From: Propionicimonas paludicola
GTDB lineage: Bacteria; Actinomycetota; Actinomycetes; Propionibacteriales; Propionibacteriaceae
Reading direction: 5' to 3'
DNA length: 64,000 nt
Assembly (NCBI RefSeq): GCF_002563675.1
Contig: NZ_PDJC01000001.1
Location: 124,001 to 188,000 of the forward strand
The notes beneath the pieces are model-generated. The model was given only the letters and a program-made list of their open reading frames with translations, was not told the origin of the DNA and did not search any database. Positions 5,178 through 13,037 of the stretch are shown piece after piece. Positions within the stretch are counted from its first letter, which is position 1; every line of letters begins with the position of its first letter. The position numbers and the translations under genes were made by a program.

Positions 5178-5322
5178 AAACTTGACCCGGCCAGCGGCTG
5201 GGTAATTGTTTCCACTTCTGCCTTATTGGTAGCACAATGGCCGAAGTTGCCCGCGGCACCGTTGCCGCCCGCGACCCGGCGGGGTCCAGAACCCGCCGTT
5301 GAGCGCATCGTTAGGAACTTGC

Positions 5323-8300
5323 ATGTCATCGAAGACCTCTCAGTACCCAGGCGTCCCCGAGGTAATCAACGGCAACGGTGCCGTCGCTTACGTCATGAAG
5401 CATGTGTGTGGAGGGGTGATCGGCTATCCGATCACACCGTCCACCGAGATCTCGGAGACCTTCGAGGCGGCCCGCGCCGAAGGCCAGCTCAATGTCTTCG
5501 GCAAGCACCCCTTCTTCGTCGAGACCGAGGGTGAGCATTCCGCGCAGAGCGGCGCCCTGGGTGCAGCTCTCACCGGCGGTGCGTTCATCTCCAATGCCTC
5601 CTCCAGCCAGGGCATCCTCTACGGCCTGGAGTCGCACTACGTGACCGTGGGCAAGAAGATCGGCGGCTTCGTGCTGCAGGTCGCGGCCCGAGTGGTCACC
5701 AAGCACTCGCTGAACGTGATGGCCGGCCACGACGACGTGTACGCGCTGCTGCCCACCGGCTACACGATCCTGTTCGGCTCCAACCCGCAGGAGGCTGCCG
5801 ACCTTGCCGCGATCTCCTACCGGGCCTCGGCGCTGTCGCTGGTCCCGGTGGCCAATGCCATGGACGGCTTCGCCACCAGCCACGTGATGAGCGAGGTGCT
5901 GCTGCCCGAGCCCGCGCTGCTGCGCGACTACCTCGGCGACCCGGCCGGACGGATCGCCTGCCCGACCGTGGCCCAGGAGTTGCTGTTCGGGGCCAAGGGA
6001 CGGCTCTTCCAGCTGAACGCGTGGCTGGATCGCCACGGCGCCGCTTTCGAGGCCAAGGATCTGACCGCCCTGCGCGGCCACCTGGCCAAGCACGCCGATG
6101 CCGTCGAGGCCGGCGACGAGGCGCTGCTCGACAAGACCCTGTCCTGGGTGCCGGCCGACAAGCAGGGTCAGTGGCGCCGCCAGTGGCGCAACGCCGAGGC
6201 CAAGGGCACCCGCCAGCTGGTCCCGGCCCTGGTCGACCCGAACAACCCCGGTCTGACCGGTCCGGTGCAGAACCAGCCCGACTTCCAGGCCGGCGCGGCC
6301 GACCACCGCACGCACTTCGCCAACGCCGTCCCGGCTCTGGTCCGGCAGGCCATGGCCGAGTACTCCGCACTCAGCGGACGCGACTACGCCCCGGTCCAGG
6401 CCTACGGCTGCGAGGACGCCGACTACGTGATGGTCGGCATGGGTTCGATCACCGACGACGTCCAGGCCGTCCTGCCCTACCTGCGCTCGCAGGGCCTGAA
6501 GGTCGGCGTGGTCTCGGTAAAGCTGCTCCAGCCGTTCCCCGAGGCCGAACTGGTGGCCGCGATCGGCAACGCCAAGGCCGTCACCGTCCTGGAGCGTTCC
6601 GACGACACCGCGCTCACCCGGCTGGTCACCTCGGCGCTGTTCCACGCCCGGGCCAATGCCGAGTCCGGCACCGAGCAGTTCGCCGGCGTCCCGGCACTGG
6701 CTGCGCTGCCCCGGCTGACCACGGCGATCTTCGGCCTGGGCGGCCATGACGTCCAGCCGCGGCACATCGTGGCCGGCTTCCAGAACATGGTGGACGCCAA
6801 CCCGTCCCCGGTGGTCTACCTGGGTTCCCAGTTCTTCACGGCCAACCCCACCCCGGCCGTGGCGGCCATCCAGGACCGGCTGCGTGCGGCCTACCCGGAG
6901 ACCGAGGCTATGGCGCTGGCTACCGGCCCCAACCCGAAGGTGCTGCCCGAGGGTTCGCTGCGGATCCGGTTCCACTCGGTCGGCGGCTACGGCACGGTTG
7001 CCACCGGCAAGCTGCTCACCGACCTGCTCAGCTCGATGCTGCGGATGCACTCGAAGTCGGCACCCAAGTACGGCTCGGAGAAGTCCGGCGCGGCCACCAA
7101 CTACTACATCACCTTGTCCCCGGAGCCGGTGCTGATCACCAATGCCGAGCTCGAGGACGTCGAGGTGGTCGTGGCTCCTGACCACATGGTGTTCTCGCAC
7201 ACCAACCCGCTGAAGGGCCTGGTGGCCGGCGGCACCCTGATCATGCAGTCCGACTCCGAGCCGCTGGCGGTGTGGAAGAGCCTGCCGGCCTTCGCCCGCC
7301 GAGTGATCCGGGAGCGCAACATCCGCTTCCTGGTGATCGATGCGTTCAAGATCGCTCGCTCGCACGCCCCGAACCCCGAACTCGAGACCCGGATGATGGG
7401 CATCGCGTTCATCGGCGCCATCCTGGGCAACGTCACCGGGATCGCCAAGGCCGGCGCCGAGGCCGAGATGGCCGAGGAGGTCCGAGCCGAGCTGACCAGG
7501 AAGTTCGGTCGCCGCGGCGAGAAGGTGGTCGAGGCCAACATGGCCGTCATCCACGACGGCATGACCGCCACCACGGTGGTCGACTACGCCGATCCGTCCT
7601 TCGAGGCCGCCGAGGCCGAGCAGCTGCGCGAGGCCCGTCCGGCCTTGTCGGCGCTGATGTCGCCGACCGTGGGCGGCGAGCGGACCAGCGGCCTGTTCGA
7701 CCCGGTCTACTTCGACGAGATGATGGGACGGCCGTTCCGCGACGGCACCATCGACGAGGCCCCGGTCCTGCCCGGCACCGGCATGTTCATGCCGGCCGGT
7801 AGTGCGGCCACCAAGAACAAGGGCATCTTCCGGCGCAACGTCCCGATCTTCGATCCGGCCGCCTGCACCGCCTGCATGGAGTGCGCGATCGCCTGCCCGG
7901 ACAACGCCATCCCGAACACCGCTCACGAGCTGTCCGAGCTGCTGATCGCCGGCATCGACGCGGCCGGCCTGGTCGAGTCGAAGCGGACGGCCTGGCTCGA
8001 CCTGGTGCCGGCCTGGACCGACGCCATTCGGGCCCGGCTGGTGGCCAACCCGGCGGCCAGCGACCTGGCCGCGGTGGCCTCGGCTGCGGCCGAGGGCCTG
8101 GACGTCCCGCCGATGTGGACCGCCCAGCTCGATCAGATCGCCGCCGCGCTGGCCGCCTTCCCGGTGGCCCGGACCCGTCCGCTGTTCGACGCGGCCGAGA
8201 AGACCGCCCCCGGCTCCGGAGTGCTGTTCTCCGCGGTGGTCGATCCGTGGAAGTGCACCGGTTGCCTGCAGTGTGTCGAGGTCTGTGGCCCCGGCGCGCT

Positions 8301-10308
8301 GAGCACGGTCGAGCAGGATCAGCCGTTGCTGGCCATGCTGGAGAACCGCTTCGAGCGGCTCACCACGCTGCCTGACACCCCCGAGCGGATCACCGCGGAC
8401 GCCACCGCCCCCGGCGGCGACGTGAAGCGGATCCTGCTGTCCCGGGCGGACTACTACTCGATGACCGGTGGCCACGGCGCCTGCCGTGGGTGCGGTGAGG
8501 TCACCGCCATCCACCTGTTCAACTCGCTGTCCCACCGGATCGGCGACGACCAGCGCAAGGCGCACACCGCCGAGTTGGAGCAGTTGCTCGACTCGCTGTC
8601 GGCCCTGTCCGAGAAGCTGCCCGAGTCCAGCCCACGCCGGATGCGGGTGAGCGCGGCCATCGAGCAGCTCGAGCGTCGGCTCTACCTGTACGAGTCCGGC
8701 CCAACCGGCAACGGCCCGGCCCCGACCGTGATGGCCAACTCCACCGGCTGCTCGAGCGTGTACGCCTCGACCATGCCGAACTCGCCCTACCTCGACCCGT
8801 GGGTCAATGGCCTGTTCCAGGACGCCCAGCCGCTGGCTGTGGGTATCTACGAGGGCCTGGTCGCCGGTCTGGTGGACGAGGTTCGTGCGCTGCGGGTGGC
8901 CAAGCTGGAGCTGGCCGGCAAGTACGACCCGAGCGTCCACGACGCCAAGCTGGCCACGATGTCCTGGCGGGACTTCACCGCAGAGGAGCGGGCCCTGGTG
9001 CCGACCGTGGTGACGATCAGCGGTGACGGCGCGGCCTTCGACATCGGCTTCGGCGCCATGTCGCGAGTGTTCGCGGCCGGTACCCCGATCAAGTCGTTGG
9101 TGCTGGACACCGGCGGCTACTCCAACACCGGCGGCCAGGCGTCCACGGCGTCCCACTCCGGACAGGACGCCGACCTGGCCCGCTACGGCGCGGCTCACGC
9201 CGGCAAGCAGGAGCGTCGCAAGGAACTCGGCTTGCTGGCCGCCTTCCACCCGAACGTCTACGTCTGCTCGACCTCGACGGCCTACCACGGGCACTTCCTG
9301 CGGGCGGCCGGAGAGATGCTCGGCTACGAGGACGGCGCGGCTCTGATGGTCGCTTACACCCCGTGTGACACCGAGAACGGGCTGCCCGAGGATCTGGCCA
9401 ACACCCGGGCCCGGATGGCCGTGGAGAGCCGGGTCAGCCCGCTGTTCGTCCACGACCCGCGGCGCGGTGTGGCCATGTCGGCCCGGTTCAGCCTGGAGGG
9501 CAACCCGGAGCCCAGCGGCCTGTGGGTGACCACGGCGCTGACCTACCGGGACGAGCGAGGACGGGTTCAGGTGCTGAACCAGCCGTTCACCCCGGCCGAC
9601 TTCGCCATCGGCGAGGGCCGGTTCGCCAAGCAGTTCCGCTGGCTGGCCGCCTACGAGGAGGATCAGGCCATTCCGATCGCTGAGTACGTCGAGCTGCCCG
9701 CAGCTCAGCGTGCGGCCAGGACGCCGTTCGTCTACACCACCGATCGCAAGCAGCGGCTGGTGAAGATGGTCTGCTCGCCGGCCATCGTGGCCATGGTCGA
9801 GGATCGTCGCCAGAACTGGCGGACCCTGCAGTTCCTGGCCGGCCAGTCCGAAGCCCAGCTCAGTGCAGCCCACAAGGTCGAACTGGAGGCCTGGACGGCT
9901 CGCTACGCCGAGGCCGTGGACGCCCGCGAGTCCGCCCTGGACGTGATCGCCCAGGCTATGGCCGACCTGGCCACCTCGTCCGGCGCTCCGGCCGGCAGCC
10001 CGCTGCACCTGGGTATCGGGATGCTGTCCGGCCCGGCGCCGACCCCGTCCGCCCCGGCGGCTCCGGCGGCCGACGGTGAGCCTCCGATCTGGCTGGATCC
10101 CGAGGACGTGGCCAAGTGCAATGACTGCGCGACCTGTTACCAGGAACTGCCGCAGCTGTTCGAGAAGGCCACCATCGTGGTCGACGGTGAGCCGAAGACG
10201 GTCGGACGGCTCAAGGACGGAGTCCTGGACGGCCTGGACGTCTCCTCGGAACTGGCTGCTCGGATCGCTCGAGTGAAGGCCACCTGCGACGCGGAGATCA
10301 TCTCGTGA
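5323..10308 (+). CDS. nifJ: Pyruvate (2-oxoacid):ferredoxin oxidoreductase, single-chain, with extra C-terminal ferredoxin-like domain
   Basis: 1661 residues. Decarboxylates pyruvate with CoA and thiamine diphosphate, passing electrons to low-potential acceptors. Order: alpha/pyrimidine domain (YPITPSTE at 35-42); gamma domain from about 545 (SVGGYGTVATGK); two-cluster ferredoxin domain (Cys848/851/854/858 and Cys978/981/984/988); and beta/TPP domain (GHGACRGCGE at 1050-1059, Cys1143, GDG at 1234-1236). The C-terminus adds Cx2Cx2C (1599/1602/1605) plus Cys1655. It is about 490 residues longer than classical NifJ (about 1170-1200), with insertions between the two clusters, inside the beta domain and at the C-terminus. 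The ATG at 5323 was chosen over a TTG at 5299 because AGGA lies 6 nt ahead. Its stop overlaps the next start (GTGA), so the two are translationally coupled. The exact 2-oxoacid is inferred. Confidence 0.9.
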   Translation: MSSKTSQYPGVPEVINGNGAVAYVMKHVCGGVIGYPITPSTEISETFEAARAEGQLNVFGKHPFFVETEGEHSAQSGALGAALTGGAFISNASSSQGILYGLESHYVTVGKKIGGFVLQVAARVVTKHSLNVMAGHDDVYALLPTGYTILFGSNPQEAADLAAISYRASALSLVPVANAMDGFATSHVMSEVLLPEPALLRDYLGDPAGRIACPTVAQELLFGAKGRLFQLNAWLDRHGAAFEAKDLTALRGHLAKHADAVEAGDEALLDKTLSWVPADKQGQWRRQWRNAEAKGTRQLVPALVDPNNPGLTGPVQNQPDFQAGAADHRTHFANAVPALVRQAMAEYSALSGRDYAPVQAYGCEDADYVMVGMGSITDDVQAVLPYLRSQGLKVGVVSVKLLQPFPEAELVAAIGNAKAVTVLERSDDTALTRLVTSALFHARANAESGTEQFAGVPALAALPRLTTAIFGLGGHDVQPRHIVAGFQNMVDANPSPVVYLGSQFFTANPTPAVAAIQDRLRAAYPETEAMALATGPNPKVLPEGSLRIRFHSVGGYGTVATGKLLTDLLSSMLRMHSKSAPKYGSEKSGAATNYYITLSPEPVLITNAELEDVEVVVAPDHMVFSHTNPLKGLVAGGTLIMQSDSEPLAVWKSLPAFARRVIRERNIRFLVIDAFKIARSHAPNPELETRMMGIAFIGAILGNVTGIAKAGAEAEMAEEVRAELTRKFGRRGEKVVEANMAVIHDGMTATTVVDYADPSFEAAEAEQLREARPALSALMSPTVGGERTSGLFDPVYFDEMMGRPFRDGTIDEAPVLPGTGMFMPAGSAATKNKGIFRRNVPIFDPAACTACMECAIACPDNAIPNTAHELSELLIAGIDAAGLVESKRTAWLDLVPAWTDAIRARLVANPAASDLAAVASAAAEGLDVPPMWTAQLDQIAAALAAFPVARTRPLFDAAEKTAPGSGVLFSAVVDPWKCTGCLQCVEVCGPGALSTVEQDQPLLAMLENRFERLTTLPDTPERITADATAPGGDVKRILLSRADYYSMTGGHGACRGCGEVTAIHLFNSLSHRIGDDQRKAHTAELEQLLDSLSALSEKLPESSPRRMRVSAAIEQLERRLYLYESGPTGNGPAPTVMANSTGCSSVYASTMPNSPYLDPWVNGLFQDAQPLAVGIYEGLVAGLVDEVRALRVAKLELAGKYDPSVHDAKLATMSWRDFTAEERALVPTVVTISGDGAAFDIGFGAMSRVFAAGTPIKSLVLDTGGYSNTGGQASTASHSGQDADLARYGAAHAGKQERRKELGLLAAFHPNVYVCSTSTAYHGHFLRAAGEMLGYEDGAALMVAYTPCDTENGLPEDLANTRARMAVESRVSPLFVHDPRRGVAMSARFSLEGNPEPSGLWVTTALTYRDERGRVQVLNQPFTPADFAIGEGRFAKQFRWLAAYEEDQAIPIAEYVELPAAQRAARTPFVYTTDRKQRLVKMVCSPAIVAMVEDRRQNWRTLQFLAGQSEAQLSAAHKVELEAWTARYAEAVDARESALDVIAQAMADLATSSGAPAGSPLHLGIGMLSGPAPTPSAPAAPAADGEPPIWLDPEDVAKCNDCATCYQELPQLFEKATIVVDGEPKTVGRLKDGVLDGLDVSSELAARIARVKATCDAEIIS

Positions 10309-13037
10309 CCAGCCCATCGTTCACCAACCAGTTGGGCCTGTTGGAGCGGCGGCTGGCCGCCGACCCGCGGGCCTTCCGGGAGCTGTTCACCGCCGACGGC
10401 ATGGAGGCGGTGGCCTGGGAGTTCCGCCAGCCGGAGCTGAGCAAGGAGTTCATCACCGAGGTCTGGGACGTGCTCAGCCGCGACGATGACTCCAGCCGAG
10501 TGATGATGCGCTTCCTGTGGCGACTCCCGGTCGGCAAGAAGCGGCTGTTCATGCGGGCCCTGGACGGCCACCTGTCCGATCGCTACCCGATGTTCGCCGG
10601 GCTCAGCCAGAACTGGCCGGCCGGCAACGCCATCGAGCCCTACATCCGCGAACCAGATGACCGGGCCACCGACTTCGAGCTGGTCAACAAGGGCTACCTG
10701 GGCTACATGGATCTGGGCTACACCCGCCGCGACATCGAGCTGTTCGTCTGGCTGGAAGCGCTGCGCGACAAGCAGTGCGCCGAAGCCCCGTGTGAACTCG
10801 GTGTGCTGCTGGCCGGGCATCGCGAGCCGCAGGGCGGCTGCCCGGTGCAGATCCACATCCCGGCCATGTTCGAGCTGATCGGCAATGGACGCTTCCGCGA
10901 GGCCCTCGAACTGCTCGAATCCTGCAACCCGCTGCCGAACGTCACCGGCCGGGTCTGCCCGCAGGAGCTGCAGTGCCAGGGGATGTGCATCCACCAGCAC
11001 TCGATGAGCATCGGTCAGCTGGAGTGGTTCCTGCCGGAGTGGTCGAAGCTGGCCGAGCCCGGCGCCACCCAGGCCCGCTTCGCCGGCGTCCGCGATCCCT
11101 GGCTGGCCGCCAAGCGGCCGCCGGTGGCAATCATCGGCTCCGGCCCGTCCGGCCTGATCACCGCCTACCTGCTGGCCGCCGAGGGCTTCCCGGTGACCGT
11201 CTTCGAGGCCTTCCACGAGCTGGGCGGTGTGCTGCGCTACGGCATCCCGGAGTTCCGGCTGCCGAACCAGCTGATCGACGACGTGGTGGAGAAGATCAAG
11301 CTGTTGGGCGGACGCTTCGTCACCAACTTCGTGGTCGGCAAGACCGCCACCTTGGAGCAGCTGACCGAGGCCGGCTTCGTCCGCGCCTTCGTGGGTAGTG
11401 GAGCCGGCCTGCCGCGCTTCCTGAACGTCCCCGGCGAGCATCTGCTGAACGTGATGAGCGCCAACGAGTTCCTGACCCGGGTGAACCTGATGCAGGGCCA
11501 CCGGGACGACCGGGAGACCCCGCTGCCCGAGGTCAAGGACAAGCAGGTGCTGATCATCGGCGGTGGCAACACGGCCATGGACGCCGCTCGCACCGCCCGT
11601 CGGCTCGGCGGCAACGTGACCATCGTCTACCGGCGCACGCGCGCGGAGATGCCGGCCCGGGTCGAAGAGCTCGAGCACGCCCTGGAAGAGGGCATCGAGC
11701 TGGCCGTGCTGCGCTCCCCGGTGGAGTTCATCGGCGACGAGAAGACCCACTTCGTGACCACGGCCAAGGTCGAGATCATGGGCCTGGGCGAACCGGACGC
11801 CTCCGGGCGGCGTCGTCCGATCGCCACCGGACGGACCACCGAGATGCCCGCCGACCTGGTGATCATGGCCCTGGGCAACTCGGCCAACCCGATCATCAAG
11901 GACTCCGAGCCCCGGCTGTCGGTGTCGCCCTTCGGCACCATTGCCCAGGTCTCCGACGATTCCAAGGAGACCTCGATCGCCGGCATCTTCACCGGTGGCG
12001 ACGCGGCCCGAGGCGGTTCGACCGCCATCCGGGCAGCTGGGGACGGCCAGTCGGCGGCCCGCGAGATCGTGGCCACGTTGTCGACGTTCCCGACCGCGGA
12101 GATCCCCGACCGGGTGGCCAAGGCGCTGGCCTACACCGAGGTGGCCGCCGAGATCCCGGTGATCGTGGCCAAGACCCACCTCAGCGTGGGGATCGAGGAG
12201 TTCACGGTCCGGGCTCCGGTGGTCGCGGCGTCGGCGCAGGCCGGCCAGTTCGTCCGAGTGCTGCCGACTCCTGATGGCGAACTCATTCCGCTGACCCTGG
12301 CCGATTGGGACGCCGCGGCCGGCACCATCACCTTGGTGGTGCAGGCCATGGGCACCTCGACGCTGGGCCTCAATCAGATGCAGGTCGGTCAGGCGCTGGC
12401 CGGCGTGGCCGGGCCACTGGGACGTCCCAGCGAACTGCACCACTACGGCGCCGACGACACGGTCGTGTTCACCGCCGGCGGGCTAGGCCTGCCGCCGGTC
12501 TACCCGATCATGCGCGAGCACCTGCGGCTGGGTAACCACGTCACCTTGATCTCCGGCTTCCGCAGCGCCGACTTGATGTTCTGGGACGGCGAGGACGAGC
12601 GGGTCGGCCGGATTCAGGCCGAGTTCGGCGAACTGCTCGACGTGATCTATGCCACCAACGACGGCTCCTACGGGATCCAAGGCTTCGTCACCAGCCCGCT
12701 GGAGGAGATGCTGAAGGCCAACCAGGAGGGCAAGGGACGCCGGATCGCCGAGGTGGTCACCATCGGCCCGCCCATGATGATGCGCGCGGTCTCCGATCTG
12801 ACCAAGGGCTACGGCGTTCCGACCGTGGCCAGCCTGAACTCGATCATGGTGGACGCCACCGGCATGTGTGGGGCCTGCATGGTGCCGGTCACCGAGGACG
12901 GGAAGCTGGTCCGCAAGCACGCGTGCATCGACGGCCCGGAGATCGACTCGCACGCCATCGACTGGGACAAGTTCCTGCCCAGGTTCGGATTGTTCCGTAG
13001 TCAGGAGCAGGCCAGCCGGGTCCGTCACGGCTTCTGA
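10305..13037 (+). CDS. NfnB-NfnA-like fused flavoprotein, NAD(P)H:ferredoxin oxidoreductase type
   Basis: 910 residues. Residues about 150-600 resemble GltD/NfnB: a Cys-rich segment (CPVQIHIP, VCPQELQCQGMCI), then GSGPSG (278-283) for FAD and GGGNTA (419-424) for NAD(P)H. From about 615 on it resembles the ferredoxin-NADP reductase alpha subunit NfnA, ending in a [2Fe-2S] motif (GMCGAC, Cys855 and Cys858, and Cys874). About 150 unassigned residues precede the Cys-rich part. The order is NfnB then NfnA in one chain. It starts inside the PFOR stop codon, so equimolar production with PFOR is likely. Role inferred: transfer of PFOR electrons to NAD(P), or the reverse, possibly with electron bifurcation. 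Confidence 0.85.
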   Translation: MTSPSFTNQLGLLERRLAADPRAFRELFTADGMEAVAWEFRQPELSKEFITEVWDVLSRDDDSSRVMMRFLWRLPVGKKRLFMRALDGHLSDRYPMFAGLSQNWPAGNAIEPYIREPDDRATDFELVNKGYLGYMDLGYTRRDIELFVWLEALRDKQCAEAPCELGVLLAGHREPQGGCPVQIHIPAMFELIGNGRFREALELLESCNPLPNVTGRVCPQELQCQGMCIHQHSMSIGQLEWFLPEWSKLAEPGATQARFAGVRDPWLAAKRPPVAIIGSGPSGLITAYLLAAEGFPVTVFEAFHELGGVLRYGIPEFRLPNQLIDDVVEKIKLLGGRFVTNFVVGKTATLEQLTEAGFVRAFVGSGAGLPRFLNVPGEHLLNVMSANEFLTRVNLMQGHRDDRETPLPEVKDKQVLIIGGGNTAMDAARTARRLGGNVTIVYRRTRAEMPARVEELEHALEEGIELAVLRSPVEFIGDEKTHFVTTAKVEIMGLGEPDASGRRRPIATGRTTEMPADLVIMALGNSANPIIKDSEPRLSVSPFGTIAQVSDDSKETSIAGIFTGGDAARGGSTAIRAAGDGQSAAREIVATLSTFPTAEIPDRVAKALAYTEVAAEIPVIVAKTHLSVGIEEFTVRAPVVAASAQAGQFVRVLPTPDGELIPLTLADWDAAAGTITLVVQAMGTSTLGLNQMQVGQALAGVAGPLGRPSELHHYGADDTVVFTAGGLGLPPVYPIMREHLRLGNHVTLISGFRSADLMFWDGEDERVGRIQAEFGELLDVIYATNDGSYGIQGFVTSPLEEMLKANQEGKGRRIAEVVTIGPPMMMRAVSDLTKGYGVPTVASLNSIMVDATGMCGACMVPVTEDGKLVRKHACIDGPEIDSHAIDWDKFLPRFGLFRSQEQASRVRHGF

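Follow-up and report, generated by a model that had tools for sequence, protein, structure and literature searches.

A long PFOR-family protein with a tethered C-terminal ferredoxin domain is encoded beside a Pattern C fused Nfn in Propionicimonas paludicola and other bacteria

Introduction

Pyruvate:ferredoxin oxidoreductases (PFORs), the NADH-dependent ferredoxin:NADP+ oxidoreductase Nfn, its fused Pattern C form, and 2-oxoacid oxidoreductases linked to NAD(P) are all already known. In Euglena and Cryptosporidium, pyruvate:NADP+ oxidoreductase wires a PFOR to NADP+ without free ferredoxin, and in phenylglyoxylate:NAD+ oxidoreductase (PadEFGHI) a GltD-like subunit connects a 2-oxoacid oxidoreductase to NAD+. 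We analyzed 64,000 nucleotides (nt) of Propionicimonas paludicola (contig NZ_PDJC01000001.1, positions 124,001 to 188,000), hereafter the window, in which a first-pass annotation had placed a long PFOR and a fused Nfn at positions 5323-13037; both open reading frames were found there. The pair is unlike the Euglena and Cryptosporidium enzyme, which is a covalent fusion to a P450-reductase-like flavoprotein and not to Nfn, and unlike PadEFGHI, which is multi-subunit and is not known to have an Nfn S-half or a ferredoxin tethered on the oxidoreductase chain.

The closest described relatives of the two proteins are known separately. NifJ-type PFORs (Moorella, PDB 6cin; D. africanus, 1b0p) share with the window's PFOR the domain order, the thiamine pyrophosphate (TPP) motif, and three [4Fe-4S] clusters, but the window's protein is about 475 amino acids (aa) longer, with large internal inserts, a tethered ferredoxin tail, and a family score far below the cut-off. 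NfnAB/NfnSL of Thermotoga and Pyrococcus (Pattern A) align with both halves of the window's Nfn, match its fold, and share its proximal, flavin Arg, and [2Fe-2S] motifs. In contrast to Pattern A, the window's Nfn is fused in the reverse order and has an extra N-terminal helical domain of about 147 aa, a distal Cys changed to Asp, an insert before GCPV, and an ERxPxT motif that reads E-L-x-P-x-T.

Its architecture is that of Pattern C (NCBIfam NF009415 / PRK12779). Passages of Liang et al. 2019 (PMC6405883) describe Pattern C as a fused Nfn in the order NfnB-NfnA, about 200 aa longer than other fused Nfn and reported from Actinobacteria, Alpha- and Gammaproteobacteria, with M. curtisii as an example; they call the fused kinds uncharacterized. 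Mobiluncus curtisii Nfn lies at the base of the Nfn tree, according to passages of Poudel 2018 (PMC6085437). AadN of R. palustris, a pattern B fused Nfn that passages of PMC9973337 report as needed for anaerobic aromatic degradation, is a further fused homologue, and its genus also carries the PFOR-Nfn pair; its domain order differs, however, and the same passages mention no adjoining PFOR.

Results and Discussion

The PFOR-Nfn pair and its ferredoxin tail

The two genes overlap by four nucleotides, as annotated at first pass, with the GTG start of the Nfn inside the overlap. The features that define the pair and its tail are the following.

5323..10308, plus strand: long single-chain PFOR-family protein (P0001), 1,661 aa from ATG (Pfam POR_N 2.9e-33, POR 2.5e-24, PFOR_II 1.6e-14; PDB 6cin 8e-82)
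9970..10077, plus strand: disordered Ala/Pro-rich linker, residues 1558-1593 (predicted local distance difference test, pLDDT, <50; Ala/Pro/Gly/Ser/Thr fraction 0.72)
10093..10305, plus strand: tethered single-cluster ferredoxin domain, residues 1599-1669, with C1607, C1610, C1613, and C1663 (profiles; folded in the model)
10305..10308, plus strand: GTGA, the 4-nt overlap of both genes, with the Nfn GTG start at 10305 (sequence)
10305..13037, plus strand: Pattern C fused Nfn (P0002), NfnB/L-like then NfnA/S-like, 910 aa (NF009415; PDB 5jca; Foldseek)

The PFOR open frame spans 5299-10308, with a TTG at 5299 and a likelier ATG at 5323 behind an AGGA-like site; PFOR residue numbers given here start from the TTG (1669 residues).

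Relatives of the PFOR were sought in 84,980 genomes, one per species, and the best 80 of at least 536 were kept, together with two plasmid loci. Across these 82 loci, 70 PFOR frames stop within their contig, and the other 12 are truncated by its end. The tail was present in 65 of the 70 complete PFORs, and Nfn lay directly downstream on the same strand in 62 of these 65 (some contigs end inside Nfn). Because the 80 loci were picked by similarity to P0001, this proportion holds for the subfamily and not for all relatives. The three tailed PFORs without Nfn comprise two in rnf operons (L016, L017) and one whose contig ends 278 nt further on (L057). Five PFORs had no readable tail: L056 and L058 are disrupted frames followed by an Nfn fragment or an Nfn, and L064, L071, and L088 are tail-less, with no Nfn within 9.9, 5.6, and 9.9 kb, respectively. 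The PFOR of Actinomycetales Actino_02 is 95% identical to P0001. The pair is not a product of chance, for it is also found in Actinomycetota, in Alpha-, Beta-, and Gammaproteobacteria, and in SAR324.

The neighborhood beyond the pair is less constant. Crude calling of open reading frames around the 63 loci having both genes gave no widely shared third neighbor; the next clusters were antisense frames and an ABC-transporter ATPase family at 13 of the 63 loci. No natural fusion of PFOR and Nfn in one open frame occurred among these 63 loci. A search of 385 alphaproteobacterial genomes, with strict cut-offs and at most two candidates scored per genome, was too shallow to be informative: P0001 was recovered from the query genome alone and P0002 from no genome.

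The C-terminal Cx2Cx2C ferredoxin-like domain noted at first pass is a single-cluster ferredoxin at residues 1599-1669 by profile, PDB match, and model. The tail profile matches the PDB ferredoxins 7m1o (1.3e-6) and 7m1n (3.2e-6), and Fer4_15 and Fer4_13 match the tails of 32/33 and 30/33 members at E <= 1, the window's own tail being weak by itself (18.1 bits against a cut-off of 22.4). The four tail cysteines (CxxCxxC and a distant C) are invariant in the 33-member alignment; in the relatives from Persicobacter and Gemmatirosa the tail is present with a different spacing. In the model, the linker runs between a long helix and the folded C-terminal domain. Its Ala/Pro/Gly/Ser/Thr fraction averages 0.71 across 66 proteins (range 0.40-0.88), against a background of 0.38 +/- 0.08 (maximum 0.56) taken from windows of five of the 66. 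A ferredoxin held by a disordered Ala/Pro-rich linker is more readily seen as a mobile tethered carrier than as a fixed docking domain.

We lean towards a reading in which the tethered ferredoxin would take pyruvate electrons to a partner NAD(P) oxidoreductase, which is Nfn here and Rnf in two distant relatives. For the window's pair, the arrangement suggests that the tail may hand electrons straight from PFOR to Nfn, and the argument for such wiring rests mainly on the tail.

The body of the long PFOR and its substrate

The host genome, a single contig of 3.26 Mb, also encodes two canonical PFORs of 1,185 and 1,188 aa. P0001 is about 475 aa longer than both, with 486 aa within inserts of at least 8 aa in the alignment; roughly 490 residues beyond NifJ had been estimated at first pass. 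The main inserts are at residues 207-278 (72 aa), at three places in 885-972 (75 aa in total, in the ferredoxin domain), and at 1081-1141 (61 aa); further ones lie at 1472-1506 (35 aa) and at the C-terminus, 1519-1664 (143 aa). As most of the insert length is internal, the added C-terminal tail makes up only about one third of the extra length.

The NifJ-type domain set is complete (POR_N, POR, PFOR_II, 4Fe-4S domains, and a TPP domain in Pfam), and in the alignment with the two canonical PFORs every ligand of the three PFOR [4Fe-4S] clusters is kept.

7864..8286, plus strand: two [4Fe-4S] motifs of the PFOR ferredoxin domain, C856/859/862/866 and C986/989/992/996, with 75 aa of inserts between them (Pfam, alignment)
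8482..9366, plus strand: proximal [4Fe-4S] ligands C1062/C1065/C1151/C1356 and the TPP motif (alignment with canonical PFORs)

The predicted fold of residues 560-1669 (predicted template modeling score, pTM, 0.78) matches PFOR structures (6cin). TIGR02176, the NifJ equivalog, is by far the best NCBIfam match of P0001, but the score of 396.9 bits is below the cut-off of 911.35; P0001 is consequently filed as a PFOR-family enzyme and not as a NifJ equivalog.

This score bears on the substrate. The module could be an NAD(P)-linked oxidoreductase for another 2-oxoacid and not a pyruvate enzyme, as the gap between 396.9 bits and the cut-off of 911 would allow, and several 2-oxoacid families, including phenylglyoxylate PadG/PadI, match more weakly. 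We regard this as distinctly unlikely, given that TIGR02176 outscores every other family by far, that the nearest solved enzymes are pyruvate PFORs, and that the TPP motif and YPITPS, which are compatible with pyruvate, are conserved.

PFORs without a tail and Nfn without a PFOR

The tail-less PFORs come from Pleomorphomonas (L064, L088) and Rhodospirillum (L071). In the Pleomorphomonas family, PFOR was found in 14 of 20 genomes, with matches that stop at or before residue 1588 of 1669 (in this set, G063 reaches the contig end and G461 is broken), and Pattern C Nfn was found in 0 of the 20 (the best match, of 175 bits, covers just the NfnL part). In the family of L071, PFOR was found in 7 of 59 genomes; the tail is absent from all seven (one split over two contigs), and Pattern C Nfn is absent from these 7 PFOR-bearing genomes, although G061 carries a pattern B Nfn. 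In a FastTree PFOR tree of 87 rows, all 15 tail-less rows (12 different ones, as three loci are present in duplicate) group with L066 in a single clade, which lies within the tailed PFORs. As they form one clade, a single joint loss of tail and Nfn is indicated rather than several.

The converse case occurs in the host's own genus. The same 60 genomes were searched for both proteins. In 29 of them, from outside the own genus and G035, there was no match like either protein, and the other 31 (G000-G029, G035) were tallied by hand. The pair is adjacent in 17 of the 31, and eight carry a full Nfn without the long PFOR (G003, G007, G008, G018, G020, G022, G023, G025), four of these genomes being 98-99% complete. 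Two hold Nfn fragments only (G004, G029), two neither gene (G009, G024), and two a PFOR for which no Nfn was seen (G006, whose genome is 66% complete, and G013, where the PFOR is at a contig end). No PFOR match was found around the eight solo Nfn in the 6-14 kb fetched per locus. Obligatory pairing of PFOR and Nfn was rejected on the strength of these eight genomes. In a FastTree Nfn tree, the solo proteins branch within paired Nfn and must have arisen at least twice.

The solo proteins, taken as whole open frames with putative start codons, differ from paired ones mostly at one place.

10317..10439, plus strand: N-terminal helices of the Nfn, residues 5-45 (modeled helices 4-19 and 21-40; conserved in most paired Nfn, diverged in solo Nfn)

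Solo Nfn are 69-80% identical to P0002 over the body (residues 148-910) and 20-29% over residues 5-45, where 60 paired Nfn average 54%. Relative to the regression for paired proteins, they fall 2.1 to 5.3 standard deviations (SD) low in residues 5-45 and just 0.3 to 1.6 SD low in residues 46-147. The six-member solo group lies at -4.6 to -5.3 SD and the two-member group at -2.1 and -3.1 SD. When five paired groups picked by hand (22 rows) are compared with one another, they are 36-71% identical over residues 5-45; from solo to paired the figure is 12-23%, with body identity alike. Residues 5-45 are thus a candidate PFOR-contact element, and their divergence appears to go with PFOR absence, clearly in the six-member lineage and less clearly in the two-member lineage.

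Both sets of proteins can be read in the light of an ordinary operon, in which a free ferredoxin pool would link PFOR and Nfn without direct wiring and the tail, perhaps with a role in stability or oxygen protection, would be an accessory cluster conserved by coincidence. Co-transcription suffices to explain adjacency, solo Nfn occurs without the long PFOR, and two alphaproteobacterial families retain PFORs of this family that lack the tail. However, tail absence coincides with absence of Pattern C Nfn, divergence of the Nfn N-terminus coincides with PFOR absence in two lineages, and a disordered linker is what a moving carrier needs, so that an ordinary operon seems improbable to us.

Rnf as an alternative partner

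On a Bacteroidota plasmid of Persicobacter (L016, 6004-15522), the tailed PFOR is followed by RnfC, RnfD, an FMN-binding (RnfG-like) protein, and two Rnf-Nqr membrane subunits. At the Gemmatirosa locus, an RnfB-like frame lies 5' of the tailed PFOR, with RnfC, RnfD, and an FMN-binding protein 3' of it. Passages of PMC12174285 describe a single-[4Fe-4S] ferredoxin-like domain of RnfB that carries electrons between modules on a flexible tether. The PFOR tail is likewise a flexibly tethered single-cluster ferredoxin domain; the RnfB domain, however, belongs to a membrane pump subunit, while the tail is part of a PFOR, in two relatives within an rnf operon. A search for one RnfB motif pattern, confined to the 38 kb surrounding the Persicobacter PFOR (L016, L117), gave no match; the Persicobacter tail might replace the RnfB ferredoxin domain. 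The Rnf case, with two loci behind it, fits a tail that would serve NAD(P) oxidoreductases generally.

The first-pass annotation had the C-terminal ferredoxin dock the Nfn. What stands of this is that the tail travels with Nfn, in the 62 of 65 loci, in their joint absence, and in the reciprocal pattern on the Nfn side. Fixed docking fits less well than a mobile carrier, and Rnf is an alternative partner.

Cluster ligands of the fused Nfn and the direction of electron flow

P0002 fuses both Nfn subunits, as first annotated: the NF009415 match is full-length (1624.9 bits, cut-off 1519; residues 6-910), with the NfnB half (GltD-like; Pyr_redox_2 274-580) before the NfnA half (FNR and [2Fe-2S]; DHODB_Fe-S_bind 845-885). 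Its best solved relatives are the subunits of P. furiosus NfnI (PDB 5jca_L 7.5e-104, 5jca_S 2.1e-66). The model (pTM 0.81) has 5jca_L as its best Foldseek match, and the 50 matches listed are all Nfn and its kin; given without query ranges, these 50 are uninformative on the N-terminal domain. Ligands were compared among 61 homologues, namely P0002 and 60 with open frames of more than 850 aa, from the 63 loci having both genes.

10767..10793, plus strand: altered distal-cluster motif R-D155-x2-C158-x4-C163, with the would-be fourth ligand C228 at 10986-10988 (alignment)
10839..11024, plus strand: proximal [4Fe-4S] ligands C179, C218, C224, and E240 (61/61; E240 aligns with E126 of P. furiosus NfnL)
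12852..12926, plus strand: [2Fe-2S] site of the NfnA half, D850, C855, C858, and C874 (61/61; DHODB_Fe-S_bind 4.1e-12)

The first-pass statement that all cluster motifs are present is borne out for the PFOR clusters and for the proximal and [2Fe-2S] clusters of Nfn, and fails at the distal cluster. Against the motif RCx2Cx4Cx3CPV given in passages of PMC6405883, P0002 reads RDx2Cx4Cx15CPV, with Asp for the first Cys and 12 extra residues before CPV. Because the distal Cys motif is altered in this way, P0002 is filed as Pattern C and not as a canonical Nfn. Asp155 is present in 61/61 aligned Nfn, P0002 included, and in 8/8 solo Nfn; the pattern B Nfn of Rhodospirillum (G061) has the usual Cys at this position. 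That Asp155 is an adaptation to the tethered ferredoxin was considered and rejected, as all eight solo Nfn keep it. Confidence in the model is low at the cluster loops, including those around Asp155, a candidate iron ligand. A Glu ligand of the NfnL proximal cluster is described in passages of PMC9503767, according to which a non-Cys ligand on that cluster tunes coupling; in Pattern C Nfn, each of the three clusters might carry such a ligand. The L-flavin Arg (R318 in GIPEFR, N5) is invariant in 61/61 Nfn, and the NADPH-side motif YRRT..EMP.R is kept. As a separate observation, the S-flavin motif ERxPxT (P0002 residues 659-664, 12279-12296) has Leu for Arg in 60/61 paired Nfn (Phe in one) and in 8/8 solo Nfn.

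These ligands also bear on the direction of electron flow. The pair could work as an NADPH-driven pyruvate synthase, in which Nfn would bifurcate (2 NADPH -> NADH + two low-potential electrons) and pass electrons over the tether to a PFOR that makes pyruvate from acetyl-CoA and CO2. Apart from one distal Cys, the Nfn features tied to bifurcation are kept (flavin Arg, proximal Glu, [2Fe-2S] Asp, and S-flavin half), and phototrophic genera, for example Rhodopseudomonas and Rhodopila, account for several of the hosts. The R. rubrum NifJ, a possible member of the long-PFOR family, can assimilate acetyl-CoA via pyruvate, according to passages of PMC8307300. We nevertheless think synthesis unlikely: Rnf is the partner in two distant relatives. 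Moreover, oxidation is expected in the many hosts that are fermenters or facultative heterotrophs (Cellulomonas, Mobiluncus, Propionibacteriaceae, Vibrio), and an Asp-ligated ferredoxin-port cluster is usually not lower in potential.

A proposed route for pyruvate electrons

We infer physical contact, electron path, substrate, direction, and cofactor use of the pair as follows. Under the tethered-carrier reading, the pair would form a module that dehydrogenates a 2-oxoacid, most likely pyruvate, and brings its own electron carrier. The PFOR would oxidize pyruvate with CoA, and single electrons would pass through its three [4Fe-4S] clusters to the C-terminal ferredoxin. Swinging on the Ala/Pro-rich linker, the ferredoxin would bring them to the neighboring fused Nfn, at whose distal cluster, the ferredoxin port, they would enter; the N-terminal helices of the Nfn (residues 5-45) may help to hold the PFOR. 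Electrons would then reach the Nfn L-flavin and reduce NADP+, probably jointly with NADH via the S-half (confurcation). The Nfn stoichiometry in passages of PMC6405883 and the two electrons of pyruvate oxidation together give the predicted sum pyruvate + CoA + NADH + 2 NADP+ -> acetyl-CoA + CO2 + NAD+ + 2 NADPH.

Several observations weigh against this route. The Rnf partners of the Persicobacter and Gemmatirosa PFORs make the tail not specific to Nfn, and the Persicobacter linker is not Ala/Pro-rich (0.40). Given the eight genomes with solo Nfn, Nfn can do without this PFOR, and Asp155, retained in all eight solo proteins, does not reflect adaptation to the tether. Because the tail was lost in a single evolutionary event, evidence from the PFOR side counts only once. 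On the Nfn side, six paired proteins also lie at -1.9 to -2.5 SD in residues 5-45, and for this reason the smaller solo group is not clearly beyond the paired range; these outliers are three Vibrionaceae and Neiella (15-20% identity in residues 5-45) and the Propionibacteriaceae L049 and L074 (37 and 41%). Finally, pyruvate is a probable rather than a proven substrate, as P0001 scores far under the NifJ equivalog cut-off.

A broader reading, which we put forward as tentative, is a PFOR family with a swinging electron arm that would plug into interchangeable NAD(P) oxidoreductases, the Nfn form being ferredoxin-independent and confurcating and the Rnf form pumping ions on pyruvate. The arm could then be seen as analogous to the lipoyl arm of pyruvate dehydrogenase. 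Under this tentative scheme the partner would be the soluble Pattern C Nfn in Actinomycetota and Pseudomonadota and the ion-pumping Rnf in Bacteroidota and Gemmatirosa's phylum, Gemmatimonadota, with non-Cys ligands on all three Nfn clusters and RnfB perhaps bypassed in Persicobacter.

A PFOR partner, the distal-cluster Asp, and the N-terminal element are not named in passages of PMC6405883 and PMC6085437. The Fig. 2 legend of PMC6405883 lists PFOR among nfn gene neighbors, so a figure may already have shown mere PFOR-nfn adjacency; searches of the open-licence literature turned up no description of the PFOR-tail-Nfn module, the Asp155 motif, or the reciprocal losses. The comparison offers a likely partner and role for Pattern C Nfn, enzymes near the root of the Nfn tree, and a concrete route by which pyruvate electrons may reach NADPH without free ferredoxin. 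Tail-less PFORs and Nfn without PFOR provide natural controls. If the route is true, channeled low-potential wiring would be useful for the engineering of NADPH supply and for understanding how electrons are insulated between pathways.

Other observations on the PFOR genes

Antisense to nearly the whole PFOR gene, the minus strand holds an ATG-started open frame of 1,663 aa (5326-10317), which is taken as chance, such frames being common in GC-rich genes. Elsewhere in the same genome (about C1:2711328-2717557; L115 3329-9558), a second PFOR, of canonical length, lies directly behind a 547-aa GltD-like flavoprotein with C-terminal [4Fe-4S] motifs, and a dihydroorotate-dehydrogenase-like gene lies 3' of it. 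The likely start of this PFOR is 2 nt past its neighbor's stop, with an overlap only for the longest open frame. The L115 locus is thus another case of a PFOR adjoining a GltD-family oxidoreductase.

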